This document shows, piece by piece, positions 15,401 through 37,678 of a stretch of DNA of 45,808 bases. Each line of letters opens with the position of its first letter. The stretch's first letter is position 1. The position numbers and the translations under genes were made by a program. The notes below the pieces were generated by a model, which had not been told where the DNA came from, did not search any database, and saw nothing but the letters and a program-made list of their open reading frames with translations. The DNA is from a virus: the IMG/VR virus record IMGVR_UViG_3300006737_000057, positions 1 through 45,808 of that record; one strand, given 5' to 3'.

Positions 15401-16274
15401 ATTTCAAATACCGTTTGGTTTTGGAATGTCAGGAATTATGGCTATAGGTTCTCAGGTAGCATTAGCAGCTTCTTCTCAAGAAAACTCATTAGCTCATGGA
15501 GTAGGTAACATGGTAGAAATAACATTAGATTCGTTTTTACCGCTTCCAATATCAAGAATGAGTCCTATTGATAATCCTATGCAGTTTTTATTTACTTCTT
15601 TCATGCCAACAATAGCTAGACCGCCTTTAGAATATACTTTAAATTTAAACACTTTCGGGCAACCAATTTATAGAGGTAGTATTTATGGCTCTTCTCGTTT
15701 TGGAGATGCTTATGCAGGTGGTGATTCAGTTGGACAATTGTATAAAAATGCTTCAATAAATATGGCAGAATTAACTAATGGTGCAGTTGATGTATCTCCT
15801 AATACTATTGCTTTTTGGACTAATGCTTATGTGGATGGAGCAGCGAGATTAGTGTCAAATCTTACAGGATTAGGATATACTATAATGGGAGAAAAAGATT
15901 TTGAGGTTAAATATGATACTCAATTATTTAATAGTTTCTTTAGTAGAGTATCAGACATAGATGCTAGAGCTTATGCAAGAACTAAAAAAGAGGTAGATAA
16001 AACTAGGGCTCGTATTAATCTATTTAAAGACGTTAATGCAAAAGAATATTTAGACTATATGAAAGCTAATCCCTATGCTTTAGCTACTGTTACTTCTTTT
16101 GATAAAATGAATGCCCAGCTAAATAAGTTAAATGCTCAAGCAAATATTGTGCGTAGAACTCCTGGGTTAAGTCCTAAAGAAAGAAGAGAAAGATTAGACA
16201 TTATCAAACAATATCAATTAATGCTTAAGAAAGGAATAAGTGCGCAAATAGAATTTATGCAATCATACAACTAG
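9465..16274 (+). CDS. Giant polyvalent virion protein with HExxH metallopeptidase motif
   Basis: At 2269 residues this is by far the largest gene. It opens with a short module seen in other phage giants (VTNPQGKKYRVNAPDGAT). Residues about 130-185 and 340-365 are hydrophobic/Gly-rich. A long charged coiled-coil region spans about 400-700. Residues 1040-1044 read HEMTH, a zinc-metallopeptidase signature, followed about 50 residues later by MDEFVTEA, which could supply the third ligand. The C-terminal third includes FFRPSATGAVRSIDAL and a membrane-like helix (ALAGAGVALVYLSAML), matching my memory of large polyvalent-protein (LPD) domains. Being last in the internal-protein cassette, it is probably packaged and ejected with DNA. 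I find no lytic transglycosylase or RNA polymerase motif. Confidence 0.7.
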   Translation: MPIFEVTNPQGKKYRVNAPDGATQDDAIRYIASQQSQPQQPTDFAANPRQLKEGEGSDFFRGIGQYTDQYGGIMGGAKMLAGKLTGSDDLIESGLKQYRKSEAAVGKRGVKKTDSFTGALDEGLGAVLTEFIPYIAGQGVGMIGEAFLTAGAGALVGGAAAPGVGAAPGLVSGFIGRKFLKDGILDEAKKLSGTARKEFLRNEVAKQLATTEGRDLIKKGFSDLGKTSGLTYMAGKFGAGEITGRAVDEALAANPDSTDQLEIIKGLNTGKLAALSAGHALADYFFLKIGLGSLDALPTAQANRVAAIFTNIGVTGLKEAPIEAVQTLLEREGANLPLANKEALEEYVNAAAAGFFMPIIPATVGGVRTPLTTDPKAEPGDATPDSSIPVTDPPQDGKATEEQKQAVRDANAAAAGTAAGSSIAAAKPDPLAIEDKAKDVIALPDETEAEETQDVIALPDETITETEAVVEESAPVQRDMFDKDEMKIKKGDSLDEMLAKSPGMRVLLENNLKAIKEENEKKAKEEQIRFSTFIKEIKEEDSLEVVKAKNKLAKAQIAQKEKDKKEIDKANEKINKGEKLKTFDELPDTITKEDEAVYKAKEELEQAKASQAVEMSGVKNMVQAENDARTARVKEALEQNKRLEKAREKQTEESVEFTGPTQDRAQAITRAGLPSQPQTQEERDSQVRAQDYYNKILNAREQRRLGPQEISPKSRVFKEEIGLDLTAKGRVPATNKAKQNARKFIKNNNLENTHGIQEVKNDNGVTTAVTVEEKIEVPDILNAKNKVLQRESGYENLSSLIYLMQPNVNANNNQELRSIIENNIPGKQFEYLTRDTKAFGKALNKIADKVKQKQEEGKKTTTEQATEKARELYEISLDKGAATYNVTPASELQARGYARKETRSTTPSVARQEKLFYKNNPVARRALLTKNTELNADLSEAGTATKALKIIENFVKNLIGVNKQGKTVKNRKNKFGFRNLGNLTQMQNVLAETFANLPGLDKTKFVVSKKMKKGVKGTYNTKTDTITISEQNATLETMFHEMTHAATTNELSKHVDVKTGEALTDTGRKLVKILSAARTADTKDRFKNELSNMDEFVTEAINNPTFQRFLADQKNVLPAPPTIQKLWANFVNAVQEMLGMNIEFTLLNDVLAVAPSLIVGSNKTEQGKQPQRTLYQKENATLHNDQAKHNRRTTGNIFKKMYDGVRDAWDGGESTFNNFVTQVQNQSHKIKKLQENMERAGLLIIADGTNTDTYNDIYNSMVTSFGKASLLVRDVLQTPMENFGEALREYKELTAKLGESKDLSQGKLVNYFTALHEPERRFIKYMQKVPLSKEAFIEFTDLTTGQKRTLSPADVRDVIFSQIASKKLTPAQLKQYRTDLETLTNVNTRIDGKPTIDKLDGEPSDIKTVDINADEFKVTKFSAQEVQNLRDEYFALQSSNPEVWNAIQKIKDNMKTIQDLTKQFNRNSNYASELSDQVIDFYGWENYIPIKGQQQSGDKADSQYEIDGEMVSGDLRRMESSFEGNLGEAENPFIQILIDSTTAAQRQGRLGLTQAIKNAILNPIKYTDNVTGKEIETTAINGEVLATYTFEQRYGKGLNEQAAADMKKLLKDKKNLVHYNADGSMNVLRIKDDSINEAIKTTYQDQNKFMEVLGDATSFIGQMHTRYNLSFGVTNFVRDFITAAGIISAEKGFGTSASFLSQISDQVARRGMKDSAKMSWMYSQNQMEKMRKYVNDEKAKGNTYPEDYLQYLEQGGMIAYSMGLSTDRAFEKLNKTIEVTKIAKTKEQITSFFDGYMATFELATRVAAYRTIRDNYISKNAPGIPRDQVPDNILQAAKREGTVYAKRLANFEEIGKQGQNLGALFMFFRPSATGAVRSIDALSPGFVSMESAERTLPDIIKRNPEALNNWRKDYQTRGETARATTAALAGAGVALVYLSAMLSGDDDEGRNRILTDDSARWNRYARFDISGITGRKGDVFQIPFGFGMSGIMAIGSQVALAASSQENSLAHGVGNMVEITLDSFLPLPISRMSPIDNPMQFLFTSFMPTIARPPLEYTLNLNTFGQPIYRGSIYGSSRFGDAYAGGDSVGQLYKNASINMAELTNGAVDVSPNTIAFWTNAYVDGAARLVSNLTGLGYTIMGEKDFEVKYDTQLFNSFFSRVSDIDARAYARTKKEVDKTRARINLFKDVNAKEYLDYMKANPYALATVTSFDKMNAQLNKLNAQANIVRRTPGLSPKERRERLDIIKQYQLMLKKGISAQIEFMQSYN
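10777..10849 (+). repeat. Perfect 28-bp direct repeat inside the giant gene
   Basis: Identical copies lie at 10777-10804 and 10822-10849, in the same frame and 45 bp apart start to start. Each encodes DVIALPDET in an acidic linker. This looks like a recent in-frame duplication in a region tolerant of length change. Confidence 0.9.
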
Positions 16275-19469: not shown

Positions 19470-19769
19470 TCAAGCTTCTTTACTTAAATAAGCCTTAGCT
19501 TTTTTAGCTGAAGCAACAGGTAACACACCTTTTTCTATATCAGTTTTAACCTCCTTAATAAATCGTTGAATTCTTATACAGTTTTTTTCAGCTATATAAT
19601 TACCTCTAAACCACCCATGAATTGTCATACGAGTAACATTAAAATAATTTGCTATGTATAGTGCAGGGAACTTAGCTTCTACACAAACTTTAGCTAATTG
19701 AATTCCTACTCTTTCATCATCTGCGGATTGAAGTCCTATTAAAAACTTATCACTATATGGTCTTGCCAT
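19470..19769 (-). CDS. Helix-turn-helix DNA-binding protein
   Basis: The 99-residue basic protein contains a clear helix-turn-helix: ALYIANYFNVTRMTIHGWFRG (about residues 36-56), where the second helix would read bases. The rest is helical. An AGGAG ribosome site precedes the ATG. It sits between an SSB-like pair and the primase-helicase, so it may be an origin-binding, helicase-loading or regulatory protein. It is one of only two HTH candidates in the window and is therefore a candidate reader of the ten palindromic sites, though nothing in the sequence proves this. Confidence 0.65.
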   Translation of the reverse strand: MARPYSDKFLIGLQSADDERVGIQLAKVCVEAKFPALYIANYFNVTRMTIHGWFRGNYIAEKNCIRIQRFIKEVKTDIEKGVLPVASAKKAKAYLSKEA

Positions 19770-27338: not shown

Positions 27339-27516
27339 AAAGAGTATGTTCGTCTCGACATTCAGCTGAACACCACCGTCTTTTATTTTTAATAGGTTTA
27401 CCACACCAAATACATTTGCCCGTATTGTTTTCTTCAATAGATATGTCAATACTTTTTAAAGTAGCATCTAATTGCTTTTGAACTTCATCATTAGCTATAT
27501 CTATTTCATCAGCCAT
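27322..27516 (-). CDS. TraR/DksA-type C4 zinc-finger protein
   Basis: The 64-residue protein has an acidic helical first half (MADEIDIANDEVQKQLDATL) and a C-terminal finger CIWCGKP...RRWCSAECRDEH, the CxxCG-x(n)-CxxxC pattern of phage-borne TraR/DksA proteins. Family members bind in the RNA polymerase secondary channel and alter host promoter choice, though many tiny phage versions are untested. AAAGGA precedes the start, which overlaps the upstream stop as TAATG. A role in takeover of host transcription is inference from the family. Confidence 0.65.
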   Translation of the reverse strand: MADEIDIANDEVQKQLDATLKSIDISIEENNTGKCIWCGKPIKNKRRWCSAECRDEHTLYANKL

Positions 27517-27734
27517 TAATAAAATCCTTTACCCCACGGAGTAGATTTTGTTCTTTGTTTATCTGTCATTTTAGGTGGTAGTTTTAACAATCCATCTTTT
27601 TCCCATCTTTCTAATATTGAAACTGTACACCCCGCATACAAAGCTACTCGCGCTCTTGATACTTCTGGTTTTTTAATCATGTAGTCTTTGGCTCTTTGTA
27701 ACATAGTTTCTTTTTCTTTCTTTGAATATGACAC
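27516..27734 (-). CDS. Small HTH protein
   Basis: The GTG at 27734 follows AAAGGA by eight bases and gives 72 residues. The segment VSRARVALYAGCTVSILERWEKDGLLKLPP is a helix-turn-helix with a trailing basic turn, similar to MerR/excisionase-like or transposase-type small HTHs. It is therefore a DNA-binding candidate and, with the protein at 19470-19769, one of two possible readers of the palindromic sites. It is closer to them (0.5 kb from the nearest). The DNA target is not visible. Confidence 0.6.
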   Translation of the reverse strand: MSYSKKEKETMLQRAKDYMIKKPEVSRARVALYAGCTVSILERWEKDGLLKLPPKMTDKQRTKSTPWGKGFY

Positions 27735-27781: not shown

Positions 27782-28039
27782 CTAATCCTCACATGAACCA
27801 CCTATACAATGTTTTCCATGCAAAATTTCATCAGCAATTTCATCTGACATTTGTTGTCGTTCTGCATTATTAATTTCTTGCTCTATTTTTTTAACTGAGT
27901 CTGTTCTTAAAAATATTTTTAACTCATCTATGATTGACTCAATATCCTCTACCCGTTCATCACCCATTGAGTGTTGGTTTAATAACTCTACATAATGTGT
28001 GAGGTAACGCTTTAGTCTACTAAATAGTTCATCACTCAT
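27782..28039 (-). CDS. Hypothetical helical protein
   Basis: The 85 residues are acidic and nearly all helical (DERVEDIESIIDELKIFLRT, then a second helix), ending with Cys-containing CIGGSCED. It starts behind AAAGGAG, twelve bases before the ATG, and overlaps the DUF3310 gene end by eight bases. A 47-bp gap to the next gene carries a small hairpin-capable stretch (GTAAC / GTTAC arms). No family recognised. Confidence 0.5.
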   Translation of the reverse strand: MSDELFSRLKRYLTHYVELLNQHSMGDERVEDIESIIDELKIFLRTDSVKKIEQEINNAERQQMSDEIADEILHGKHCIGGSCED

Positions 28040-28313
28040 AATATTTATTCTCCTTTAAAAATTCTTCTAGCTTTTGTGCATACCACCTAAGTTTTCCCGC
28101 GTCATTGATTTCGTCCTCGGTAGAACCTTTTAATCCTAAGCGGGTATTGTATTTCATGATAGTGCCTTTAAGATACCCTTTGTACTCTTGGTCTGTTAGT
28201 TTAGCACGAATGACCTTAATTGTCTCTATACCTTTTTTATAATGTGGGGGGTTTTCTACTATATCTTTTTGATTGGTACTGTGTGAAGTACACACAGTGT
28301 CATTTGAACTCAT
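28032..28313 (-). CDS. DUF3310-family protein
   Basis: The 93-residue protein matches the DUF3310 pattern: NPPHYKKGIETIKVIRA, LTDQEYKGYLKGTIMKYNTR, and GKLRWYAQKLEE. The family is frequent in phage early operons, sometimes fused to nucleotide-metabolism enzymes, and its function is not established. Unusually, codons for residues 6-12 overlap one of the ten palindromic sites (28280-28296). The start has only a weak AAAGAA ribosome site. It follows the VRR-NUC gene with a ten-base gap. Confidence 0.78.
   Translation of the reverse strand: MSSNDTVCTSHSTNQKDIVENPPHYKKGIETIKVIRAKLTDQEYKGYLKGTIMKYNTRLGLKGSTEDEINDAGKLRWYAQKLEEFLKENKYYE
28280..28296. promoter_or_regulatory. Palindromic site 1 (TGTGTG-AAGTA-CACACA)
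   Basis: Arms extend to ACTGTGTG/CACACAGT. It is the innermost copy and the only one lying fully inside a coding region, the first codons of the DUF3310 gene. Confidence 0.75.
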
Positions 28314-28323
28314 TGTATTTTCT

Positions 28324-28611
28324 TTATTGTAGTTGTTGTAACAACGACTCTAACATGTCTACGTTAAGTTCGTCAATTACTATTGAGAATCCTTGAGCAG
28401 TTTGAATATCTTTGAGGTGTTTCTTTTGAAGTGCGGTAGGTTTTCCTCCGTTGGCTTTGCACTCTATACCAATAAATTTACCTTTATAACAAGCAAGTAT
28501 ATCAGGTACTCCGTTAGCACCATAGCCTCCCGTTGCGGGCATGCAGTGATATGCACCTAGCTTATCTAATACTTTCTTTACTTTTACCTTTACTTTTTTC
28601 TCGGGTGTCAC
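28324..28611 (-). CDS. VRR-NUC domain nuclease
   Basis: The GTG at 28611 gives 95 residues. The sequence has the VRR-NUC core: GAYHCMPATGGYGANGVPDI and then CYKGKFIGIECKANGGKPTA, containing the PD and ExK residues of the PD-(D/E)XK fold, followed by a helix with Gln and Lys (LQKKHLKDIQ). Small stand-alone VRR-NUC proteins are common in phages and are structure-specific or Holliday-junction-type nucleases in related cases. The start is inside the end of the upstream gene, with AGGT before it. It fits the recombination theme of this operon. Confidence 0.85.
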   Translation of the reverse strand: MTPEKKVKVKVKKVLDKLGAYHCMPATGGYGANGVPDILACYKGKFIGIECKANGGKPTALQKKHLKDIQTAQGFSIVIDELNVDMLESLLQQLQ

Positions 28612-29035
28612 TATCTTTACCTAGTAGAGAGCTATATTCTTTTTTAGATAAAGGCACTATATACCAACCGTTTTCTATTTTAAACCCTAATTCTAATTTA
28701 TCTTCTTTGTCTTGCCATGATTCTTTTGGGTGATTGGTATGGACAAAATTACTTGGAAAGAAACCGCGCGATAAATATACGAGGCGCTTAAGTAAGTCAG
28801 ATAGATTAGTAAATATTATGTGGTGATAAGATTCTGTTACATCTATATTAATAATTTTTGTGAGTAGAAAAGGGGGAAGGGTGTCAGGTGTATACCTCCT
28901 AGTATAGTTTTTTGTGGGTAGGTGGCACACATAATAAGAGTTTTCTTTTGAGACGGGAACTAAGATATTCCCGTCCTCAAAATCTTCATAAAGTTCAGAC
29001 GTCAAATTTAAGAATCCATTGTTGCTTCCATGCAT
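28562..29035 (-). CDS. Hypothetical protein
   Basis: The 157-residue ORF overlaps the upstream gene by 41 bases and the VRR-NUC gene by 50 bases, which is more than usual here, and its ATG has no clear ribosome site, so the start is uncertain. A Tyr/Pro-rich front half (THPLPTK-like region) leads to a C-terminus with GFKIENGWYIVPLSKKEY and a basic tail rich in Lys and Ser. I recognise no domain. An N-terminus further in is possible. Confidence 0.45.
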   Translation of the reverse strand: MHGSNNGFLNLTSELYEDFEDGNILVPVSKENSYYVCHLPTKNYTRRYTPDTLPPFLLTKIINIDVTESYHHIIFTNLSDLLKRLVYLSRGFFPSNFVHTNHPKESWQDKEDKLELGFKIENGWYIVPLSKKEYSSLLGKDSDTREKSKGKSKESIR

Positions 29036-30020
29036 AACTTGCCATGGATTTAGGGTTTGTGTACAAACTTACTACTTCTAAGTCTTGTAAGTATCTAGTT
29101 TGTTCGCCTAAAGTGTAAGGTGCATGACACTTATCTATAAGGTAACTTTCTACTAACTCGTCCCGCAAAGTATTAATGTTTAGTAAAGTAGGTATTAGTT
29201 TATCAGACTCAGGATAATCTTCAACTTCCTCATATGCTTTCAAAGTAAATTCTTTTGTTGTAGGATTACCTTTACCAATATAATGAAAGTCTGTTATTCT
29301 ATCTTTACCAATAATCCAAAAGTTTGACGCTAATAACTTTTCTTGGTTATCTTTTTGTCTTACCTTAAACGCTATTGCTTCATTTCGACCATCAAGTTTA
29401 TCTTTAAAATACTTTAAGTTTTCAGCGTCAAGTATAGTTTTTTTAGGGTTAAAGAAAGCGTCTAAAAGTATATGTCCTTGTTCAGAATTTAAAGAAGTAC
29501 CATTTTCTTTTTGCCAATGGTCATTATCTCCTCCCTCAATATTTTTTAAGTTTTCTTTGACATTACTTTCAGACGTAATTTTACTCATATCTAGAAAACC
29601 TTTTGAGGTTGCAGAAAACGGAACTTGCTCATCTTCTCTACGTTTTTGTATTGAAGAAACTAACTTTCTAAGTGTGGTGGACTTCACATAATTGTCAGCA
29701 TATCGTCTTTTCCATGGTTGCAAACACTCAGTAGATACAAAGACAAATCTTTGTGGTTCCATATCTGAATCTATTAAGATTGCACCCACAGGAATACCAT
29801 TTTCATTTCCTATGGCATACCCCATTTCTTCAACACTATGTCTTTCTTTTGCGGGGTGTACATTATAGGGTTGAATTATGTAAGCATTTTCATCATCATC
29901 TTTAGCCCAAACTACTTCGCTAAGCACTACCCAATTAAACTTAAAGTTAAGTTCTTTGATTAGTGGTTCAAATTCCCAATGAATTTTCAAAGGTTTAGTT
30001 CCATATACTAAATTACTCAT
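28995..30020 (-). CDS. Hypothetical protein, early gene behind palindromic site 2
   Basis: The 341-residue protein is charged, with many aromatic residues (WKRRYADNY, FDFHYIG-like strands) and a low-complexity Asn/Glu stretch near residues 150-185. No catalytic motif is evident. The ATG lies 20 bases after site 2, with a purine-rich GAGAGGAGAA in between serving as ribosome site. The gene is on the border of the operator-rich region and its base composition is still AT-rich. I do not recognise it. Confidence 0.55.
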   Translation of the reverse strand: MSNLVYGTKPLKIHWEFEPLIKELNFKFNWVVLSEVVWAKDDDENAYIIQPYNVHPAKERHSVEEMGYAIGNENGIPVGAILIDSDMEPQRFVFVSTECLQPWKRRYADNYVKSTTLRKLVSSIQKRREDEQVPFSATSKGFLDMSKITSESNVKENLKNIEGGDNDHWQKENGTSLNSEQGHILLDAFFNPKKTILDAENLKYFKDKLDGRNEAIAFKVRQKDNQEKLLASNFWIIGKDRITDFHYIGKGNPTTKEFTLKAYEEVEDYPESDKLIPTLLNINTLRDELVESYLIDKCHAPYTLGEQTRYLQDLEVVSLYTNPKSMASYAWKQQWILKFDV

Positions 30021-30039
30021 TACATTCTCCTCTCGTTAA

Positions 30040-30056
30040 TGTGTGATGTTCACACA
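30040..30056. promoter_or_regulatory. Palindromic site 2 (TGTGTG-ATGTT-CACACA)
   Basis: It covers the stop codon of the upstream gene (30050-30052) and stands 20 bases before the ATG at 30020. Counting the outer spacer bases, the arms are TGTGTGA/TCACACA with a three-base centre. Confidence 0.8.
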
Positions 30057-30919
30057 GTTTGGTTTGTGTTTAGTCTGTTTGCTTCAAATTTTACTCGTAA
30101 GTTTTTGTTACGAGGTATTCTCCCCTCTGACCATGGTATTATTTCGTCATCATATATACCCTCTTTTTCATAATAAAATTTTCTAAGGTATGATAGTCCG
30201 TAATTAATAATTTTATTTTTTTCTTGGTCATCAAAATCTATTAGTCCACTTCTACCATTTGCAATGATAAGAAAAAGTACCTGTTCATAGGGCGAAAGTT
30301 TATTAAGTGTTGCCTCTACATCAAGAGAGTCAAACTTATGTATGACTTCATGATATTCTTTTCGTATAGATTCTACATCTTGCCTCAATGCTTCGCGGTC
30401 AGTATTTTGTAGCCATTGTTTTGCCAAGATAATATTATCTTTATACTTCACACGAATTTTATACTCTTGTTTCTTATCTATCTTAGAAACGTGAATACTG
30501 TAATATGAATCAGGACATGGTTTTTGATTAGCTAAATCTAATTTCATATGTTGTGATACGTGGTATTCATTACTGTTACTATCTAAGTATCTATCTTTAC
30601 CATTCTCCTTATAGACACGCCATATAAATCCTAGCTTGGCTCTACACCAACATATGTATCCGTTACCGTCAAATATTGTTTGATTAAGTACAGTCATATC
30701 TGTGGAATATAAATCCATGCTACCTCTAGTCCACTCAAATAAATCTCCTCTGTGTATAGCACCTATCTCTTTCCCGTAACAATACAGTACAAACTTATCA
30801 TCTCCGTCGGGCATAAAATACTTATGCCCGTGACTCCTTTTATACAACGGATATTCGTTTGGTCTTGCTCGGTATGGTTTTTGCGTTTTTACAATTTGAA
30901 CTAAGTCATTAAACATCAT
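30050..30919 (-). CDS. Hypothetical protein
   Basis: I place the start at the ATG at 30919 because AAGGAG stands seven bases in front of it. In-frame ATGs further upstream would overlap the neighbouring gene. The 289 residues include many Tyr, Trp and Lys (YKRSHGHKYFMPDGDDKFVLYC, then GYICWCRAKLGFIWRVY), which suggests a beta-rich front half, and a helical end (SPYEQVLFLIIANGRSGLIDF). Not recognised. A few alternating strands with His and Cys could indicate a metal site, but no pattern is firm. Confidence 0.5.
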   Translation of the reverse strand: MMFNDLVQIVKTQKPYRARPNEYPLYKRSHGHKYFMPDGDDKFVLYCYGKEIGAIHRGDLFEWTRGSMDLYSTDMTVLNQTIFDGNGYICWCRAKLGFIWRVYKENGKDRYLDSNSNEYHVSQHMKLDLANQKPCPDSYYSIHVSKIDKKQEYKIRVKYKDNIILAKQWLQNTDREALRQDVESIRKEYHEVIHKFDSLDVEATLNKLSPYEQVLFLIIANGRSGLIDFDDQEKNKIINYGLSYLRKFYYEKEGIYDDEIIPWSEGRIPRNKNLRVKFEANRLNTNQTV

Positions 30920-31163
30920 TTTCATTCTCCTTAAATCTATTTGATTCGTTTGTTTTATGATTATACTCAGACACTTCTGTTTGAGTATCATCTCCATATT
31001 CAGTCCATTTAGTAATTAAATGTCCTCCGTCATCTTCACTAAGTTCAATGGCATTGTTGGCTCCAATCTCTTCAACTTCTTCTCTAGTCAACAACTCATT
31101 ACTCTTAATTTTTACAACTCTTACATCTACCGATTGCTCGGTATAATAATAGATATACTTCAT
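30909..31163 (-). CDS. Small acidic hypothetical protein
   Basis: The 84-residue protein opens with YIYYYTEQSVDVRVVKIKS, a likely beta hairpin, and becomes acidic and polar (SEDDGGHLITKWTEYGDD). AAGGAG precedes the start. Stop and start of neighbours overlap (ATGA upstream, eleven bases downstream), so it is part of one coupled set of small genes at 30.9-31.7 kb. No family recognised. Confidence 0.5.
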   Translation of the reverse strand: MKYIYYYTEQSVDVRVVKIKSNELLTREEVEEIGANNAIELSEDDGGHLITKWTEYGDDTQTEVSEYNHKTNESNRFKENENDV

Positions 31164-31375
31164 TTCTTTTTCTCCTTATGGTTTAAATCAATACAAAATA
31201 CAGGTGGTTCTACTTTTACAAACACGCTATTGTTCGGACTTATAGACTCTAGTAGAAACCCTTTCTTTGCATGGCAGTGATACACTTTCTCGGGTTGAAA
31301 TATAGTGAAATACATCAACGCGATTACCATACTAATTGCCACGCCAACTAAAAAACTTGCGACTAGCTTAATCAT
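31160..31375 (-). CDS. Small membrane protein
   Basis: The 71 residues start MIKLVASFLVGVAISMVIAL, one transmembrane helix running to about residue 27, followed by a basic/polar region of about 45 residues with two Cys and a C-terminal KEKKK. The topology would put the tail outside or inside depending on the helix orientation, which is not clear. It overlaps the 51-residue gene upstream by eight bases. In an early operon such a protein might block superinfection or touch host envelope systems, but this is conjecture. Confidence 0.55.
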   Translation of the reverse strand: MIKLVASFLVGVAISMVIALMYFTIFQPEKVYHCHAKKGFLLESISPNNSVFVKVEPPVFCIDLNHKEKKK

Positions 31376-31523
31376 AAGTGTTCTCCTCTACTGTTATTTC
31401 TACATCAATTGGTTCGCCCCAACTCATATGATTTCTTACGCGGTGTTCAGCTTCATCTTTATTGGTAGCCTTTACTTCAATCGGTTCGTACTCTTGCTTA
31501 ACATAAACAACAAAATTTTTCAT
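31368..31523 (-). CDS. Small hypothetical protein (51 residues)
   Basis: The ORF starts at 31523 behind AGGAGA with a seven-base spacer. It reads MKNFVVYVKQEYEPIEVKAT, then EAEHRVRNHMSWGEPIDVEI, a probable beta-alpha-beta mini domain with an acidic end. The start overlaps the upstream stop as ATGA, and the stop overlaps the membrane-protein start. These features make it a real gene although it is very short. Confidence 0.6.
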   Translation of the reverse strand: MKNFVVYVKQEYEPIEVKATNKDEAEHRVRNHMSWGEPIDVEITVEENTYD

Positions 31524-31654
31524 TGCATATTCTCCTTTGAAATTTCATAAACATTTGATTCAACTTCATGGTCATCTAGGGCATTGACCACACTATCGAA
31601 TGTGGTCTTGTCCCCATTTTTTACTACAACTAAAAACATCATTTCCGTGTCCAT
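31520..31654 (-). CDS. Small acidic hypothetical protein (44 residues)
   Basis: The ORF reads MDTEMMFLVVVKNGDKTTFD and continues NALDDHEVESNVYEI. GGAGA stands eight bases before the ATG, and palindromic site 3 lies 21 bases upstream, the same distance as at the MoxR gene. It is the first gene after the VWA gene, coupled by ATGA to the next ORF. The sequence looks like a beta-alpha-beta mini domain, similar in style to the following 51-residue protein. No function is assignable. Confidence 0.6.
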   Translation of the reverse strand: MDTEMMFLVVVKNGDKTTFDSVVNALDDHEVESNVYEISKENMQ

Positions 31655-31674
31655 ACCAGTTCTCCATTTGCGAC

Positions 31675-31691
31675 TGTGTGTGATTCACACA
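31675..31691. promoter_or_regulatory. Palindromic site 3 (TGTGTG-TGATT-CACACA)
   Basis: It covers the stop codon of the VWA gene (31685-31687) and lies 21 bases before the ATG at 31654. The spacer is the least symmetric of the set. Confidence 0.8.
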
Positions 31692-32878
31692 TAGTCTTGT
31701 TTGACAACAGTGCCACTACTTGGAACATACTGCTCGGTGTCAGTCACTACCCATAGAGTTTTAGTGTCTATGTCCCAACGTGGTTTGTCCCAAAAGTAAC
31801 CGTCAGTAAAAACAATCACCCCCTCTGCATTAATCTTCTTCTCATTAATGTAGTCGGCGATACATTGCGCTTCAGTTCCTCCACCCCCTTGAGGCTTGAG
31901 AAGTTTTACAATGTCTTGATAGTCTGAGGTAAATATTTGTTCGCCATGTACCTGTGTATCCCACCAAAGAATTCTTACTTTGTCAGGCGTACAGGTTTCA
32001 CATATGCTCGCCACCTCAGACGCAAAAGAGGATAGTTCCTTCTCACCAATAGAGCCTGACGTATCAATAGCTACCACCAATTCGCCCACAGTATCATTCT
32101 CGGTGCTTGGCAAATAAATATCATCAGCAAGGTATCGTTTATTGAACCTCCGCCATGTGTATTCTTCTGCCCCCTTTGTAACAGACATCACAAAATCTTT
32201 AAGCACCACTTTCCAATCTATCCTTGGCGCAAGTGTGTCCTCTATTGCCCGAGGGGTTTTATTGCCAAACCTACCCGCAATTAGTTTCCCCTCTCGCAAA
32301 GCTTTATCCACTTCTTTATCAAATGCTTTCTGCTCTTCACCTGTCATGGGTTTAGGTTTACTGTGTTGGTCTTGAGATTCTCCGTCACCATTACCAAATC
32401 CATGGTCGTCAAGGGTTTCAAGGTTAGGTTGTTTTCCCTCCTCTTGTTGTTTCTTCAGGTCACGTATGACTTGATTGACTGACCAATTGTGATACTTAGC
32501 GTCATACAGTCCGCCCTCAGGTAAGTGACAATGTTCCTTATCCTCAAAACTCATGATAATATCGTTGACCACATAATCAGCCGAGGCATTGACAAGTTCA
32601 GGGTTATCTTTGAACAAATCTTTGAACCGAGATACATGCTTGAGAGCAACATGTAAATTCTCATGCATGATTAGTCCACGAAACTCAGCGTCAGTAAGCT
32701 TGGAACAAAACTCTCTACCATATACTTTATCAATACCGTCTGTGTATGCAGTCGGACAGTTATCATCTGCAATTCTACTTTTACCCATCATGAAAATGCC
32801 TGAGTAAAATGCAGTTTCAGGGTGCCTCATCAACAATACATGAGAGCGTTTCAATCTATCTTCAAGGCGTTTAGCCAT
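31685..32878 (-). CDS. HExxH metallopeptidase-like / VWA protein (DUF2201-type)
   Basis: The 397-residue protein has two parts. Residues 66-77 read FRGLIMHENLHV, an HExxH-type zinc motif (His72, Glu73, His76) in a DUF2201/CobT-like N-terminal region, with ADYVVNDII downstream. After a Gln/Lys/Asp-rich linker (about 140-200) comes a von Willebrand A domain: VVAIDTSGS with Asp272 and Ser274/Ser276, GGGGTEA with Thr335, and VFTDG with Asp359, a complete MIDAS set. Such proteins partner with MoxR-type AAA ATPases, here encoded by the preceding gene. The pair resembles RavA-ViaA-like and CobN-accessory systems. The target is unknown. Site 4 lies 26 bases before the start. Confidence 0.85.
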   Translation of the reverse strand: MAKRLEDRLKRSHVLLMRHPETAFYSGIFMMGKSRIADDNCPTAYTDGIDKVYGREFCSKLTDAEFRGLIMHENLHVALKHVSRFKDLFKDNPELVNASADYVVNDIIMSFEDKEHCHLPEGGLYDAKYHNWSVNQVIRDLKKQQEEGKQPNLETLDDHGFGNGDGESQDQHSKPKPMTGEEQKAFDKEVDKALREGKLIAGRFGNKTPRAIEDTLAPRIDWKVVLKDFVMSVTKGAEEYTWRRFNKRYLADDIYLPSTENDTVGELVVAIDTSGSIGEKELSSFASEVASICETCTPDKVRILWWDTQVHGEQIFTSDYQDIVKLLKPQGGGGTEAQCIADYINEKKINAEGVIVFTDGYFWDKPRWDIDTKTLWVVTDTEQYVPSSGTVVKQDYV

Positions 32879-32903
32879 AATAATCTCCTAGTATAAATGG
32901 CAG

Positions 32904-32920
32904 TGTGTGAAGTTCACACA
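32904..32920. promoter_or_regulatory. Palindromic site 4 (TGTGTG-AAGTT-CACACA)
   Basis: It lies in the 56-bp gap between the MoxR gene stop and the VWA gene start, 26 bases before the ATG. Arms extend to GTGTGTG/CACACAC. Confidence 0.8.
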
Positions 32921-32934
32921 CCACCGATTGAAAG

Positions 32935-33999
32935 TTATAGTTCAGTTAAGATAACCGCGTTGTCAATCTGCCACTTCTTGATAGTGTCGTTGTACATGGC
33001 AAGTTTACGAGTACGCTTTCCTTTCAACATCATAGTGAAGAACACCGCTTGCATTTCTTCAGCTTCATATCTCTTCACATAGGTCATAGCTTTTGTGACT
33101 GTGTCATTAGTATCCACTTTGTCGACTAGCATGAATACAGTCATAAGCTGAGCAGAGATACTTTCGGGAACGGCTACCTCTGTGGGTTTGTTGAGAATTT
33201 GTTCATAAGAGGGTATCTCTTTTTCTGTTTCCATAAGTGCAGTCATGTCAGCGCTTGCACTTTGTCCAATCGTACCCGCCAATGCACAAGCGGTGGCGTT
33301 CACACCTAACACATCTCTGTTCTCAAGTATCACACTGGACTTCGCCAACGAGCGGGGCGACGCGTATGATAGCTGAGGATTCTTAGGGTTGAAGATATAA
33401 GGATTCTCTGTATCTTCACTATCCAAATAGCTATTCAAACATCTAGGGAACATGTGAACAAAGGCGCGAATCAATGGGTGTACCCCATTGTCCGTTGCCC
33501 ATGGTAGCCAAATGTCCGCGTTAGGTTTCTCCATTCTCATCATACAAACTCGGTTACCCGCGTGAGCAAGCATTGTATCTCCGACTCCGTCTGATTGATT
33601 GTTTGAAGTACCAAAGACAATCGAACCCTCGGGTAATTGCCTATCACCAACACACCGCTCAAGCATGAGCCTTGTGAATATCACTTGTAACATCTTCGGT
33701 GCCTTCATAAACTCATCAAGCAGTATAACTTTTGGTTTGTTGCTATCAAGTTTGAATATTGAACCCACATAGTTCTCCAAAGATTTTGAAGTATGATTAG
33801 GAATAGTCATTGCAATGTCAGACATATCCATAACAGGACAGTCAACATAGACATAGTCATAACTGTCACCCATGTCATGCTCAATCATTTTGAGCAAGGA
33901 AGTTTTCCCACACCCAGGTTCCGACTGAATAATCGGTGTTAGTTCTTTTCCAATAGTTGGAATAGTAGTTCTTAGTTCGTTAATTGTTGCTGAATACAT
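32935..33999 (-). CDS. MoxR-type AAA+ ATPase
   Basis: The 354-residue protein has Walker A EPGCGKTS (27-34), Walker B VILLDEF (91-97) and a sensor-1-like stretch FGTSNNQ (129-135), in the spacing usual for the MoxR/CbbQ group. The Walker A region lies close to the N-terminus, so there is no extra N-terminal domain, and the C-terminal 150 residues are helical. ATPases of this group remodel partner proteins together with VWA proteins, and the VWA gene is next in the operon. The gene has its own palindromic site (5), 21 bases before the start. Confidence 0.88.
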   Translation of the reverse strand: MYSATINELRTTIPTIGKELTPIIQSEPGCGKTSLLKMIEHDMGDSYDYVYVDCPVMDMSDIAMTIPNHTSKSLENYVGSIFKLDSNKPKVILLDEFMKAPKMLQVIFTRLMLERCVGDRQLPEGSIVFGTSNNQSDGVGDTMLAHAGNRVCMMRMEKPNADIWLPWATDNGVHPLIRAFVHMFPRCLNSYLDSEDTENPYIFNPKNPQLSYASPRSLAKSSVILENRDVLGVNATACALAGTIGQSASADMTALMETEKEIPSYEQILNKPTEVAVPESISAQLMTVFMLVDKVDTNDTVTKAMTYVKRYEAEEMQAVFFTMMLKGKRTRKLAMYNDTIKKWQIDNAVILTEL

Positions 34000-34019
34000 A
34001 GTGTATCTCCAATAGTTAA

Positions 34020-34036
34020 TGTGTGAACATCACACA
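34020..34036. promoter_or_regulatory. Palindromic site 5 (TGTGTG-AACAT-CACACA)
   Basis: It lies in the 40-bp gap between the DUF3150-like gene and the MoxR gene, 21 bases before the MoxR ATG. Arms extend to ATGTGTG/CACACAT. On the minus strand it is followed by TTAAC, as at sites 2 and 10. Confidence 0.82.
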
Positions 34037-34039
34037 TGA

Positions 34040-34951
34040 TTAAATGAACTTGCTTAGAATATCGTCTACTTTGCTTTTAACCTCATGACGCTCGGCGTCA
34101 CTCTCTTGCAAAGTTGCGGTATCCACGTTTTTTAGTACATCTTGCAAAGACTTACTTGCCTTAACGACTTTGTCAGACAATTCGTTTTTTACAGGTTGAA
34201 ACTCTTTGAAGTTTTTACACATCTCTTGTGCTGACTTGAGCGTGCTTTCATAGATTTTCCCTTTCTTGTAAACGACTTCTCCTTTGTCATTAATTGCCTC
34301 TTGAACCTCACACCCCTTTGAAATTCTCTGAAGAATATCGGTGATTCGGGTTTTTTGTGTATGTAATACATTGTCTACAATCTCCCTAGTCTGTTGTTCA
34401 TAGTTAGTTTTCAAATCCTCTGCAATGGCTTGAGATATGTTGCACCTAAAGTCATGCTCGGGTACTTCTGCCACACTTAGTCGCATGCGATACATTCTTC
34501 GCACCTCCTCCACATTGGGATAATCTTCTTCGTTGTACATATCCCCATGTTCAAACTTCATGTTACTTTTGATAGTGTCATACTGCCCACAAAAATCATC
34601 TACAAGTTTATTGAACGTCTGTTCATGTTCCTTGTATTGTGCTGACCACTCCTCAAGTTGTAGTGAGGGTAAAAGGTATTGTGTTTTACTCCACTGATAC
34701 GCGCTACCCACTAACCACTTACGGATGTGTTCCTGATAGTTCTTGATACTTTTGTGTATCGGATTGCCCGATAAAAGATTTTTTACAAATCGACCTGATT
34801 GCTCAGTCGCTTTCTTACCTGTTGTTACTTCATTAGATATACCAATGTCAGTTTTAGTCGCTGACCATGTGTGCATATCTATACTTACTAGCATTGCTGA
34901 GGTTGATAGTGAAATCAAATGCTCAGGTTGTTTCAACATTTCGTCATGCAT
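34040..34951 (-). CDS. DUF3150-like helical protein, partner of MoxR/VWA module
   Basis: The start is taken at the ATG at 34951 (GAGAGG ribosome site); the longer frame to 35005 would run into site 6. The 303 residues are helical, starting HLISLSTSAMLVSIDMHTWS, with WLVGSAYQWSKTQYLLPSLQ in the middle and VPEHDFRCNISQAIAEDL near residues 170-187. This matches the general pattern of DUF3150 proteins, which I recall as neighbours of MoxR ATPase and VWA genes in phages. It is probably the substrate or adaptor in the module. The family name is the least certain of the three; the association is supported by tandem order with shared operator sites. Confidence 0.6.
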   Translation of the reverse strand: MHDEMLKQPEHLISLSTSAMLVSIDMHTWSATKTDIGISNEVTTGKKATEQSGRFVKNLLSGNPIHKSIKNYQEHIRKWLVGSAYQWSKTQYLLPSLQLEEWSAQYKEHEQTFNKLVDDFCGQYDTIKSNMKFEHGDMYNEEDYPNVEEVRRMYRMRLSVAEVPEHDFRCNISQAIAEDLKTNYEQQTREIVDNVLHTQKTRITDILQRISKGCEVQEAINDKGEVVYKKGKIYESTLKSAQEMCKNFKEFQPVKNELSDKVVKASKSLQDVLKNVDTATLQESDAERHEVKSKVDDILSKFI

Positions 34952-34991
34952 GATAATTACCTCTCTATTATTAAGTTTAAAAAAGTGACAG

Positions 34992-35008
34992 TGTGTGTGG
35001 TTCACACA
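34992..35008. promoter_or_regulatory. Palindromic site 6 (TGTGTG-TGGTT-CACACA)
   Basis: This is the best dyad of the set, with nine-base perfect arms (CAGTGTGTG / CACACACTG, 34989-35011). It lies 41 bases before the DUF3150-like start and 16 bases after the stop of the 43-residue ORF. Confidence 0.85.
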
Positions 35009-35023
35009 CTGCCATACGACAAG

Positions 35024-35155
35024 TTACCTACTGTCCTCCTCTTGTTGTTGTTGATATTCAACCAAACTTGTCTGTTCTTCAACATCAAGTCGGTCACTCT
35101 CAGGCACGACCACGCGCTTGTTCTCTGTTAGTTCTTTTCTCCAATCTTTACTCAT
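35024..35155 (-). CDS. Small charged protein (43 residues)
   Basis: The ORF reads MSKDWRKELTENKRVVVPES, then a Glu/Gln-rich end. GGAGG stands nine bases before its ATG, which overlaps the upstream stop as ATGA. The C-terminal QQQQEED run suggests a coil. Its place after the zinc-ribbon gene and before site 6 makes it part of the same transcript. No family recognised. Confidence 0.6.
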   Translation of the reverse strand: MSKDWRKELTENKRVVVPESDRLDVEEQTSLVEYQQQQEEDSR

Positions 35156-35352
35156 TTGATAATACCTCCTTTGTTATTAATACCTTTCAAATCTTCAAGT
35201 CTTGTGAATACCATATAGTTACTCTTGTGCATGGGCGCAATGGTATGTTTCACTTTCCGTGCTTCAATCTCGCCACACGTTGTACACGTATCAAAGCCTA
35301 GCGCCTTGCGACCACTAGGTATATGCTCTGCACATCTAACACAATTTGCCAT
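35152..35352 (-). CDS. Small zinc-ribbon protein
   Basis: I use the ATG at 35352 (ribosome site GAGAGG) rather than a longer frame that would cross site 7. The 66 residues begin MANCVRCAEHIPSGRKALGF and continue with CTTCGE, a two-CxxC zinc ribbon, then APMHKSNYMVFTRLEDLKGI. Similar short ribbons with HKSNYxV are common in phage early operons. Binding to host RNA polymerase or to another host enzyme is conceivable but not shown. It is the first gene after the sigma70 promoter at 35452-35480. Confidence 0.65.
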   Translation of the reverse strand: MANCVRCAEHIPSGRKALGFDTCTTCGEIEARKVKHTIAPMHKSNYMVFTRLEDLKGINNKGGIIK

Positions 35353-35380
35353 AACAATATCCTCTCTGTAAAAATGAAAC

Positions 35381-35397
35381 TGTGTGAAAGACACACA
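35381..35397. promoter_or_regulatory. Palindromic site 7 (TGTGTG-AAAGA-CACACA)
   Basis: Arms extend to ACTGTGTG/CACACAGT. It lies 29 bases before the ATG at 35352, in the leader of the transcript expected from the promoter at 35452-35480. Confidence 0.82.
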
Positions 35398-35451
35398 GTA
35401 CCAAATGGAAAAACACAAAAGAAATAGCGTAATTCTCCACCTGATAATAAT

Positions 35452-35480
35452 AGTATAGCATTACTTAACTAATAATTCAA
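35452..35480 (-). promoter_or_regulatory. Sigma70-type promoter for the zinc-ribbon/DUF3150/MoxR/VWA genes
   Basis: On the minus strand TTGAAT (35475-35480) and TATACT (35452-35457) are 17 bases apart, and the bases TGC directly before the -10 give an extended -10. Transcription would start near 35445 and pass through site 7 into the genes from 35352 leftward. Confidence 0.72.
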
Positions 35481-35538
35481 GTTCTGGAAAACGATAGTTC
35501 GACAGGGTAATAGGTGAATAGCACCCGCCATAGATTGA

Positions 35539-35610
35539 CCTAAATAGTATCTTTAAGTAGCACACCATGAATCGTACCTTTTCTAGCGCAAGCCCTAAAT
35601 AGTACCTTTA
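35539..35610. repeat. Pair of 17-bp direct repeats plus GTACCTT copies
   Basis: CCTAAATAGTATCTTTA (35539-35555) and CCTAAATAGTACCTTTA (35594-35610) differ at one base and are 55 bp apart. Two further copies of ATCGTACCTT lie at 35571-35580 and 35660-35669. This may be a protein-binding array. Confidence 0.7.
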
Positions 35611-35751
35611 TTTCAATAAGCAAAACAAATCATAAAAAAGCTTACTTTTAGGTTAATTTATCGTACCTTCGCGCTCATGCTCTTGGGTGTATGCCACCTT
35701 TTTAGTATACGAGGGCTATCCATTTGGCTGGCTGAGATGGTCAATCCGCGG

Positions 35752-35796
35752 TGTTCTGTTCCAAACAGGGGTATACTTTACTAATAGAACAGAACA
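35752..35796. repeat. Inverted repeat TGTTCTGTTC / GAACAGAACA
   Basis: Ten-base perfect arms (35752-35761, 35787-35796) enclose 25 bases that contain GTATACTTTAC. It is one of three dyads built on GTTCC/GGAAC-like sequence in the control region. Confidence 0.75.
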
Positions 35797-35866
35797 AAGG
35801 TTTTGCTAAAGTGTAAGTGCTTGTATTCTCTAGTTATATTATATTGTTATTATAGTTATTATTAGT

Positions 35867-36005
35867 TTTGTTCCAATGTTCCAATGATTTTATAGGGCGA
35901 TTCCTGAGAGTGTAATATAAGTTGCACCGCGAAAAAGGTTCTCTTGATGAGTAACTTTTTCTAAACTTCAGACACCCTTGGAATTCATTGGAACATTGGA
36001 ACAAA
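35867..36005. repeat. Perfect 21-bp inverted repeat made of TTCCAATG units
   Basis: The arms are at 35867-35887 and 35985-36005, perfect over 21 bases and separated by 97 bases. Each arm contains the eight-base unit TTCCAATG twice in tandem (once per strand sense). Two tandem half-sites per arm suit a dimeric protein or origin-binding iterons. Confidence 0.88.
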
Positions 36006-36036
36006 GTCTTGAACCCTAGGTAAACATTGAGTTTTC

Positions 36037-36068
36037 TTGTTCCAAACACACAGAATATTCTGGAACAA
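36037..36068. repeat. Inverted repeat TTGTTCCA / TGGAACAA around CAGAATATTCTG
   Basis: Eight-base arms (36037-36044, 36061-36068) surround a region that contains the perfect 12-base palindrome CAGAATATTCTG (36051-36062). It is the third GTTCC/GGAAC dyad of the control region. Confidence 0.75.
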
Positions 36069-36166
36069 ACTACACTTTACTTATGGAACGCTTAGGTTAT
36101 CTTCCTGCCATCTGGAGTCCCGTTGTAACCTAGAAAGTTCTTAGGTGCTAAGCACTTAAGATGTAC

Positions 36167-36183
36167 TGTGTGATGTTCACACA
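36167..36183. promoter_or_regulatory. Palindromic site 8 (TGTGTG-ATGTT-CACACA)
   Basis: Arms extend to ACTGTGTG/CACACAGT. It lies in the control region, not directly before a gene, with site 9 about 170 bp to the right. Confidence 0.82.
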
Positions 36184-36217
36184 GTTTCAAATGACTTCCT
36201 AAGTTTACCGAACGTTT

Positions 36218-36234
36218 GGGGCGCAGAGCGCCCC
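36218..36234. other. GC-rich hairpin GGGGCGC-AGA-GCGCCCC
   Basis: A perfect seven-base stem with a three-base loop, followed by a second possible stem (CCCGAG...CTCGGG, 36232-36248). No T-run follows on either strand, so it is not a simple terminator. It may structure the leader RNA of a leftward transcript. Confidence 0.6.
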
Positions 36235-36242
36235 GAGGCTCT

Positions 36243-36392
36243 CTCGGGACGGAACTGGTATACCATATGGAAGCGTAGGCTAGGACGTTGATTGGAAAAG
36301 TCGAACGTGTAAAAGCTAGGGGGTTTCAAATGGTAATGTGTGAACATCACACACCAAGGCGCTCGCGAGTTCCTCGGGTCGGAACTGGTATA
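36243..36392. repeat. 20-bp direct repeat CTCGGG-CGGAACTGGTATA, two copies
   Basis: Copies at 36243-36262 and 36373-36392 match at 19 of 20 bases and are 130 bp apart. Each lies 20-60 bp to the right of a palindromic site (8 and 9). On the minus strand the unit starts TATACC, so it may contribute a -10-like element to each site. Confidence 0.72.
36337..36353. promoter_or_regulatory. Palindromic site 9 (TGTGTG-AACAT-CACACA)
   Basis: It has the same spacer as site 5. It lies between the 20-bp repeats and 54 bases downstream (in minus-strand sense) of the terminator, so it could act on transcripts that begin in the control region. Confidence 0.8.
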
Positions 36393-36406
36393 GTAAAACG
36401 GAGACC

Positions 36407-36432
36407 AAAAAAAAGGCAGACCGAAGTCTGCC
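36407..36432 (-). terminator. Intrinsic terminator with TTCG tetraloop
   Basis: On the minus strand GGCAGAC-TTCG-GTCTGCC (36415-36432) is a perfect seven-base stem with a stable UUCG loop, directly followed by eight T (36407-36414). It lies six bases after the stop of the gene at 36439-36615 and would end transcripts from the right-hand promoter before the control region. Confidence 0.9.
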
Positions 36433-36438
36433 GATTTT

Positions 36439-36615
36439 CTACTTCTCAGGTACGAAAGTAATAGCACCCGCGTAGTGCATAGCACTCACCAAATCTTTCA
36501 GGTGTGCGCGGTGGCGCTCGCGAGTTTCGTCGTTGGCTTCATTAGCTATCATTAATATTAATGAACCAACTTTATGTTGCAACTGAGCCGTATCTTTTTC
36601 GTTGAGTAATTGCAT
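36439..36615 (-). CDS. Small helical hypothetical protein
   Basis: I use the ATG at 36615, preceded by GGAG at seven bases; the longer frame to 36702 overlaps a hairpin leader and lacks support. The 58 residues are helical (MQLLNEKDTAQLQHKVGSLI, then ETRERHRAHLKDLVSAMHYA), ending in FVPEK. It is followed by the intrinsic terminator, so it is the last gene of the short rightmost leftward operon. A 14-base string, GGCGCTCGCGAGTT, in this gene (36513-36526) is repeated at 36358-36371 in the control region. Confidence 0.6.
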   Translation of the reverse strand: MQLLNEKDTAQLQHKVGSLILMIANEANDETRERHRAHLKDLVSAMHYAGAITFVPEK

Positions 36616-36653
36616 AGCAATCTCCATAGAAAAGTTTATAATAAGTGAAGCGA

Positions 36654-36701
36654 GGGGCTTGCGCCCCCCGTCCACGTGGTCGTGCAAGTAAGTTACTTGC
36701 A
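36654..36701. other. Structured gap: GNRA-loop hairpin and perfect palindrome
   Basis: On the minus strand GGGGC-GCAA-GCCCC (36654-36667) has a GNRA-type loop. Next to it TGCAAGTAA-C-TTACTTGCA (36683-36701) is a perfect nine-base-arm palindrome that covers the stop of the upstream gene. The two could modulate translation or partial termination between the two genes. Confidence 0.65.
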
Positions 36702-37511
36702 AGACTTCTCTATCAGGGCGATACCCTGATTGAAGTCTTTAGTCTGCTGAGCAGACCATTTGAAACCATTGTCAACAGATAGGTTACGTCTTTTAACAAT
36801 GGCTGATACCATTTTCGGAATTGCGTCCGTAATGACATCAGGGGCAGAAGCCACGTTCGAAGCTACACCGCAAGCTCTTTTCAAAGCCTTTGTAAGGGCA
36901 GTTCGCAAATCGCGAGTCTTACCTTTTTTGTAGTCCCCAAAAGCTTTTCGAACAGGTTGTACGTGTTCATGCTTTGAACGTGCGTACTTGTCATACTCAG
37001 GAGCCTTAGGATTCCTAGCACCCTTAGTATTCCACCCTTCAAATTCACTTCGAGTGAAAGCCATGCAACTTACTGCATTAGTAGTGAGATATACTTCCTC
37101 ACCCCCTTTTGCGGGCATAAGGTTGCCCTTAGCACCTTTGGTAAGGCGCTGAACCTCAGGAACATCGCCCTTACTTACTTTGACCTCGTAGTTCAGGTCA
37201 TAAGCAAGCGCAAGAGAATTAATGAAGCGCTTCTCGTAGGCTTTGTCCTTAAGCAGATTAGAGAATAATCCCTTAATCTGGTCTGCATACCACGTAGGCT
37301 TCCGGTCTTTTGGTTTCGTATCGTGGTACGATGCAGGCATGAAAGGCAAAAACAGCTCCAGTAAATCACCTGCGTTGTTTGCTACTTTGTCGCCCAGTGT
37401 AGCCTGAGTTTGGACAAGATTGTCCGCTTCGGTTGGTACATTATGTACCACGGTTACCGCGTCAGTGACGGCGGTATCCAAGGGTTTACTATTAGGGACG
37501 GATTTGTCCAT
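36693..37511 (-). CDS. First leftward early gene, hypothetical protein
   Basis: The start at 37511 has AGGAGA seven bases upstream and gives 272 residues; a longer frame to 37556 is not supported. The protein is basic with Lys- and Ala-rich helices: PTWYADQIKGLFSNLLKDKA, then a loop with KGAKGNLMPAKGGEEVYLTT, and a basic stretch ARSKHEHVQPVRKAFGDYKK. No known domain. Being the first gene of the leftward set, next to the divergent promoter region and site 10, it is a candidate early regulator or host-takeover protein. Its G+C content is well above that of the genes to the left. Confidence 0.6.
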   Translation of the reverse strand: MDKSVPNSKPLDTAVTDAVTVVHNVPTEADNLVQTQATLGDKVANNAGDLLELFLPFMPASYHDTKPKDRKPTWYADQIKGLFSNLLKDKAYEKRFINSLALAYDLNYEVKVSKGDVPEVQRLTKGAKGNLMPAKGGEEVYLTTNAVSCMAFTRSEFEGWNTKGARNPKAPEYDKYARSKHEHVQPVRKAFGDYKKGKTRDLRTALTKALKRACGVASNVASAPDVITDAIPKMVSAIVKRRNLSVDNGFKWSAQQTKDFNQGIALIEKSCK

Positions 37512-37603
37512 AATAATTCTCCTAACGTGCGCATGTAGCCTATATGCGAAGTGCATATATAATAACTACATACTGACCAACATTGTTTCGTTGACTTAAT
37601 ATA

Positions 37604-37631
37604 AGTATGGCATAGATTGACTAATTGTAAA
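37604..37631 (-). promoter_or_regulatory. Possible sigma70-type promoter for the first leftward gene
   Basis: On the minus strand TTTACA (37626-37631) and CATACT (37604-37609) are 16 bases apart, and TGC before the -10 gives an extended -10. The start would be near 37597, leaving an 86-base leader before the ATG at 37511. Weaker than the other two promoters. Confidence 0.42.
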
Positions 37632-37661
37632 ATTTTTGGGACCTTTTCGTCCATATGGAAC

Positions 37662-37678
37662 TGTGTGAAGTACACACA
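37662..37678. promoter_or_regulatory. Palindromic site 10 (TGTGTG-AAGTA-CACACA)
   Basis: This outermost copy lies 151 bases before the first leftward gene and about 70 bases upstream of the possible transcription start, an upstream position unlike sites 2-7. It is 20 bases from the G-quadruplex motif. Confidence 0.8.

Follow-up and report, generated by a model that had tools for sequence, protein, structure and literature searches.

The 45,808-nucleotide (nt) viral record IMGVR_UViG_3300006737_000057, analysed over its full length and called the window here, contains ten copies of the palindrome TGTGTG-N5-CACACA, and the question is what recognizes them and to what effect. The palindromes, which would serve a stoperator-like shut-down of the early operon, are probably operators of a single regulator encoded by the phage, and the likeliest candidate for it is the product of a nearby gene that we call REG. 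Most relatives of this phage carry palindromes, often at the same positions, with a sequence that is specific to each genome, and the sequence of REG correlates with that of the operator. The original prediction of a dispersed operator network controlled by one phage-encoded protein is supported: the ten sites along the early module have counterparts in relatives, the operator type differs between close relatives, and REG follows the type.

Ten palindromic sites lie in the early module

The record contains exactly ten TGTGTG-N5-CACACA copies and no further exact copy, and each lies where it was originally reported. All ten are located between 28,280 and 37,678, which is the leftward early module. 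Allowing up to two mismatches gave 15 matches in the whole record compared to 1.5 expected, and none of 100 shuffled sequences reached 15. The motif frequency, proposed as a check when the sites were first described, is thus far above chance. A control pattern that was reversed but not complemented gave 0 matches. Five of the ten sites have 7-base pair (bp) arms and a 3-bp center (TGTGTGA-N3-TCACACA), and three extend outside the arms with C...G. The sites, listed by position, are:

28280-28296, site 1, in the N-terminal codons of open reading frame (ORF) 28032-28313 (DUF3310-like NPPHY protein), 17 nt after the ORF start
30040-30056, site 2, overlapping the stop of 30050-30997 and 19 nt before the start of 28995-30020
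31675-31691, site 3, overlapping the stop of the VWA gene 31685-32878
32904-32920, site 4, between the stop of the AAA ATPase gene and the start of the VWA gene
34020-34036, site 5, between the DUF3150-like gene and the AAA ATPase gene
34992-35008, site 6, upstream of the DUF3150-like gene (ATG at 34952)
35381-35397, site 7, upstream of the zinc-finger-like gene, at approximately +48 from the promoter-like TTGAAT-N17-TATACT (35480-35452)
36167-36183, site 8, in the noncoding leader
36337-36353, site 9, in the noncoding leader after a terminator-like hairpin (36432-36415)
37662-37678, site 10, in the divergent region upstream of the REG gene

Sites 2-7 are placed between a stop codon and the next ribosome-binding site, approximately 19-41 nt 5' of the starts, in agreement with their predicted placement ahead of minus-strand starts. 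Site 1 encodes ...D-TVCTSHS-T... within its ORF, and site 10 precedes by approximately 30 bp the best promoter-like -35 element ahead of the REG gene. The (A/T)TGGnA flank that had been proposed alongside the palindrome was recovered at most as a weak outward CCATTTG-like trend, and no result here depends on the flank.

Relatives carry other palindromes at the same positions

With the window MoxR-like AAA ATPase as the anchor, 80 viral contigs (of 351 ATPase relatives) were collected, and exact 6+6-base palindromes were counted in each. Most of the 80 contigs have one palindrome type of their own repeated 4-11 times, whereas shuffled sequence gives 1-2. About 15-20 operator types were found across the relatives, and they differ in sequence from the type in the window. 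They include CCTGACA-N3-TGTCAGG, CGTGGGA-N2-TCCCACG, TTCGACA-N2-TGTCGAA, and TGTAGTGA-N2-TCACTACA, and others with the left arms CCTGTCA-N3, CCTAGAA-N2, TCCGTGA-N2, CGTCGT-N6, TCCCGT-N6, TGTATCG-N4, AATCGGG-N4, TGTCGAA-N4, CGTTACA-N2, TGTACAA-N2, and AAGCGT-N8, among others. In the larger parts of the contigs examined, the relatives' sites are limited to one stretch of approximately 10 kilobases (kb), which is the same early module. The gap upstream of the ATPase gene, occupied by site 5 in the window, has a palindrome with different letters at the same spot in many relatives. The same target genes recur across relatives, often the same gaps are occupied, and sites are enriched at gene ends (74/157 compared to 14% of control positions). 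Because the same gaps and targets carry differing types, the arms change in a compensated fashion, all copies of a genome together. Conservation at orthologous gaps, the ATPase gap included, and compensation of arm changes, by which the relatives' sites stay palindromic with new letters, had both been suggested as checks, and both are strongly borne out.

The relatives found are metagenomic viral contigs plus one named isolate, the cyanophage Synechococcus phage MinM2 (L018, L094; OQ594354). MinM2 has the same MoxR/DUF3150/VWA module and 21 copies of GGTTCA-N3-TGAACC, the late region included. A profile search did not detect REG in MinM2, in which MM2_92 is a candidate solely by its position as the first early gene. 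Several copies of TGTGTGA-N3-TCACACA occur in L151, L159, and L191 (one contig of 64 kb), which have a distant ATPase (29%), and these copies are possibly convergent. The pelagiphages HTVC027P, HTVC023P, and 023Pt_psg01, and DSL-LC04, share the terminase, and no such repeated palindrome was found in the parts examined. A scan of genome contigs gave no host matches.

Palindromes are replaced site by site in a close clade

G008, G012, G022, G013, and G019 form a close clade with four operator types, in which the ATPase of G008 is 84-96% identical to those of the other members. The sites are at the same positions with similar flanks and different operator letters. At the six paired sites of G008 and G012, the flanks are 65-93% identical and the operators 61-72%; G012 and G022, which have the same operator, are 83-100% identical. 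Two of the clade positions lie inside conserved coding sequence (the VWA gene and a 145-amino acid (aa) gene), with the position kept and the sequence changed, and 14 of the 122 sites checked fall inside conserved ORFs. Because coding sites keep their position and change their letters, the placement of the operators is independent of ribosome-binding sites and promoters. The inclusion of coding sites among those replaced points to selection for the DNA sequence of each site, even where this compromises the peptide that it encodes.

REG follows the operator type

The protein that varies with the operator is encoded next to site 10:

36693-37511, minus strand, REG, candidate operator-binding regulator of 272 aa, first gene of the leftward early operon

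The REG start at 37511 was picked by its ribosome-binding site. A protein of 190-303 aa is encoded by the first leftward-operon gene in nearly every relative whose contig covers the region. REG is hypervariable, and its readily detected homologues are mostly in phages whose operators are identical or similar to each other. All 14 phage pairs with an identical operator have homologous REG proteins, and an identical operator is shared by 0 of 277 pairs that lack REG homology. G008 and G012 have ATPases that are 96% identical, yet their REG proteins are unrelated and their operators different. The REG proteins of G002 and L054 are 48% identical, and their operators share 57% of the conserved half-site letters. 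A Mantel permutation of REG against operator gave 0/2000. Within four operator groups, REG alone tracked the type among the ORFs compared (proteins of at least 60 aa). In the larger-contig scan, a few small ORFs also passed, and for G004/G009 two virion proteins did too.

REG subfamilies are joined by profile comparison, and members are usually basic (median isoelectric point (pI) 9.3). As a search query, the window REG retrieved only L148, a fragment of the same phage. The model of the L028-class REG (predicted local distance difference test (pLDDT) score of 84) consists of helices, one of them long, and a small sheet. The AlphaFold model of the window REG has the same order of elements, and it was left out of the fold search because of its low confidence (pLDDT 63).

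Two helix-turn-helix (HTH) proteins had been named as possible regulators, and neither tracks the operator sequence. The protein at 19470-19769 is present in 21 of 22 relatives with a nearly constant recognition helix, and its G008 and G012/G022 versions are 98-100% identical despite the different operators of these phages. The family of the protein at 27516-27734 keeps approximately 80% identity across different operators, and no member was found in G012. CRP-like host control was rejected because the operators differ between close relatives.

The palindromes probably act as DNA rather than RNA elements

The same palindromes could form hairpins in transcripts, an alternative raised with the first description of the sites. 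Such hairpins in leaders or spacers, whether bound by a phage protein or affecting translation, processing, or termination by themselves, are an unlikely explanation. A ribosome-binding site and start codon lie downstream of 113 of 157 sites at a median of 22 nt, as an RNA element would have them, but 46% of random positions likewise have a start in range. Where a gap has its own sigma-70-like promoter, the site is at approximately +45, inside the 5' untranslated region. The centers favor one orientation to transcription in many phages, which raises the possibility that the site is not functionally symmetric, and a few window sites score as terminator-like. Against hairpins, the arms (stems) are invariant within a genome and the centers (loops) variable, which is the opposite of known hairpin operators. 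Sites with one mismatch comprise 4 G-U, 10 A-C, and 9 other combinations, which is no G-U excess on the transcript strand. The sites are not followed by a T-run, and intrinsic terminators were rejected on this ground. Some sites lie in the middle of coding sequence, and site 10 is upstream of the best REG promoter candidate. Among close relatives, the flanks are kept while the palindrome differs, also in coding sequence, and the palindromes are therefore best read as sequence-specific double-stranded DNA operators and not leader hairpins, with double-stranded DNA well ahead.

A proposed mechanism for early shut-off

From these sequence patterns, we infer direct binding by REG, action as a dimer, repression, and a roadblock to transcription. 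REG would be produced early from the first leftward gene, which has its own upstream site. It would then bind the sites, spaced approximately one per gene in gaps, leaders, and some coding sequence, and the two-fold symmetry of the sites makes action as a dimer probable. Bound REG would block the elongating host RNA polymerase and some promoters, turning the early operon off. An elongation block together with occlusion of leader promoters fits all site positions. Activation of the adjacent gene is unlikely because the site either separates the promoter from the start codon or falls within a gene. Since REG is the first gene and a site lies upstream of it, the simplest scheme would combine early shut-off with negative feedback.

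Several observations weigh against this assignment. The correlation with the operator is 0.39 for REG compared to 0.23-0.37 for the ATPase, DUF3150, and VWA proteins, with VWA nearly equal; the operator swap in the close clade and the all-ORF scan are stronger evidence than this correlation. Neither Pfam nor PHROGs match REG, no HTH is detectable in it, and the L028-class model has no PDB or BFVD match below E = 0.001. The window REG is linked weakly to the family (E = 6e-6 in one profile search, hhalign 27%), and the G004 REG is acidic (pI 5.2). Five relatives (L008, L011, L012, L081, and L093) have a gene at the REG position and no repeated palindrome was found in them; they have either degenerate sites or a lost network. 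A large virion protein (9465-16274) is too variable to exclude by the operator-tracking test. The fairly constant distance to the start codon and the orientation of the centers count on the same side.

The proposition that REG is a sequence-specific DNA-binding family with a new fold is evenly balanced. Its specificity would switch wholly between close relatives, with all 6-12 sites, some of them coding, rewritten in step, and the stoperator-like system would have evolved independently of HTH repressors. The data suggest an unrecognized, fast-changing gene-control system. If REG is the binder, it represents a DNA-recognition family to which no relative is known, and its approximately 15-20 pairs of protein and cognate site form a natural library for decoding specificity. 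The evolutionary question is how a regulator and a ten-site network change specificity together.

Other roles and other binders

Binding of the sites as DNA, by REG or a different protein, could instead serve genome segregation or condensation, packaging, or the timing of replication, in a parS-like or nucleoid-like role. Dispersed double-stranded palindromes at approximately one per kilobase, partly within genes, are compatible with such a role, and the 21 MinM2 sites extend beyond the early operon. In the window and its relatives, however, the sites occur in the early operon only, with the enrichment at gene ends described above. A scan of the window proteins (Pfam, PHROGs) gave no ParB-like protein; the relatives were not searched. 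This role is rather improbable.

We consider it quite doubtful that the operators are bound by another factor, such as a host regulator or an unlinked phage protein. Single TGTGTGA-N3-TCACACA palindromes are present in dozens of other viral contigs, which counts in favor of another factor. A shared host regulator does not explain why the operator type varies among close relatives, and REG is the only, or nearly the only, phage protein that tracks the type.

N4-like hairpin promoters, which an injected virion RNA polymerase would use, are very unlikely. A 7-bp stem with a 3-base loop does stand approximately 20 nt before early genes, and the 2269-aa virion protein at 9465-16274 is highly variable between relatives. 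This protein, however, matched nothing among PHROGs, RNA-polymerase Pfam families, or PDB entries and lacks an HD[SAG] motif, and PF00940 was found in 0 of 21 records (a search in which the control was also silent). In addition, sigma-70-like promoters precede several sites, some sites are coding, and the loop letters are unconserved.

Comparison with known systems

N4 virion RNA polymerase promoters are short inverted repeats with an approximately 3-nt loop upstream of early genes. The palindromes share this form and placement, whereas no such polymerase was detected, sites lie inside genes, and the sigma-70-like promoters are separate from the sites. Lambdoid CI/Cro systems have a few palindromic operators clustered at two promoters and bound by HTH proteins. 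They are similar in having palindromic operators near an early promoter and specificity that shifts between phages; here, in contrast, many single sites are spread over approximately 10 kb and the candidate is not an HTH protein. The TGTGA/TCACA letters resemble CRP sites (TGTGA-N6-TCACA) in this one phage. The distinction from CRP drawn at the outset holds, since the spacing is N3, the arms are 7 bp, and relatives have unrelated letters at the same positions.

The stoperators of cluster A mycobacteriophages are dispersed repressor sites along the transcribed genome, mostly off promoters, and the distance between per-phage stoperator consensus sequences correlates with repressor distance (PMC6550527). 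The system described here resembles the cluster A stoperators and Rep (L5, Bxb1, Trixie) in its many dispersed, near-identical sites that are mostly off promoters and in a site consensus that covaries with one phage protein, here REG as the candidate repressor. The analogy with L5 made in the original prediction is supported. Some orientation bias is also common to both, here partial and of the centers only. The differences are that the phages studied here have 4-12 sites in the early operon compared to 20-30 genome-wide in cluster A, and that the sites are palindromes of 14-20 bp, whereas stoperators are asymmetric 13-bp sites in one orientation to transcription. Rep is an HTH immunity repressor, whereas REG lacks a detectable HTH, Pfam/PHROG match, or fold match. 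Operator types here share few letters between phages that are approximately 65-97% alike in the ATPase, and specificity would thus diverge far more widely than in cluster A. With regard to lysogeny and superinfection immunity, no integrase was found in 21 records, which may be fragments. The system is not classed with the cluster A stoperators because its sites are palindromic, fewer, and limited to the early operon and its protein is unrelated by the tests made. A literature search, with most subscription journals outside its coverage, found no published description of this system.

Genes and other conserved elements of the early module

The early module has the order REG, leader, zinc-finger-like, DUF3150-like, MoxR-like AAA ATPase, VWA/DUF2201, and more small genes. 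The genes that follow sites 4-7 are:

31685-32878, minus strand, VWA / DUF2201 protein (phrog_1314), downstream of site 4
32935-33999, minus strand, MoxR-like AAA ATPase (phrog_1297), downstream of site 5, anchor for the relatives
34040-34952, minus strand, DUF3150-like protein, downstream of site 6
35152-35354, minus strand, small Cys-rich (zinc-finger-like) protein, downstream of site 7

The remainder of the record belongs to a tailed phage and encodes a terminase, a portal, and DNA replication proteins. The 2269-aa virion protein contains an LPD38 domain and is strongly divergent even among otherwise close relatives.

Sigma-70-like promoters with a conserved spacer, TTGACT-TATTAGTAAACTTATGG-TATAAT, lie approximately 50-60 nt upstream of operators (L063, G009, L054, L010, G004, and others; 35480-35452 in the window). 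They were found, among other places, before the zinc-finger-like and DUF3150-like genes. Many relatives, G001-G016 among them, have 2-4 leader copies of a second conserved noncoding element, GA(T/A)ACCAGTT, often followed by ATGTGTCGTCG, which lies at 36243-36262 and 36373-36392 (minus strand) in the window. The element usually follows directly on a terminator-like stretch and often precedes an operator, with no dependence on operator type. Its complement resembles the ribosome-binding site GGAGAACTGGTATG that is present before a few genes.

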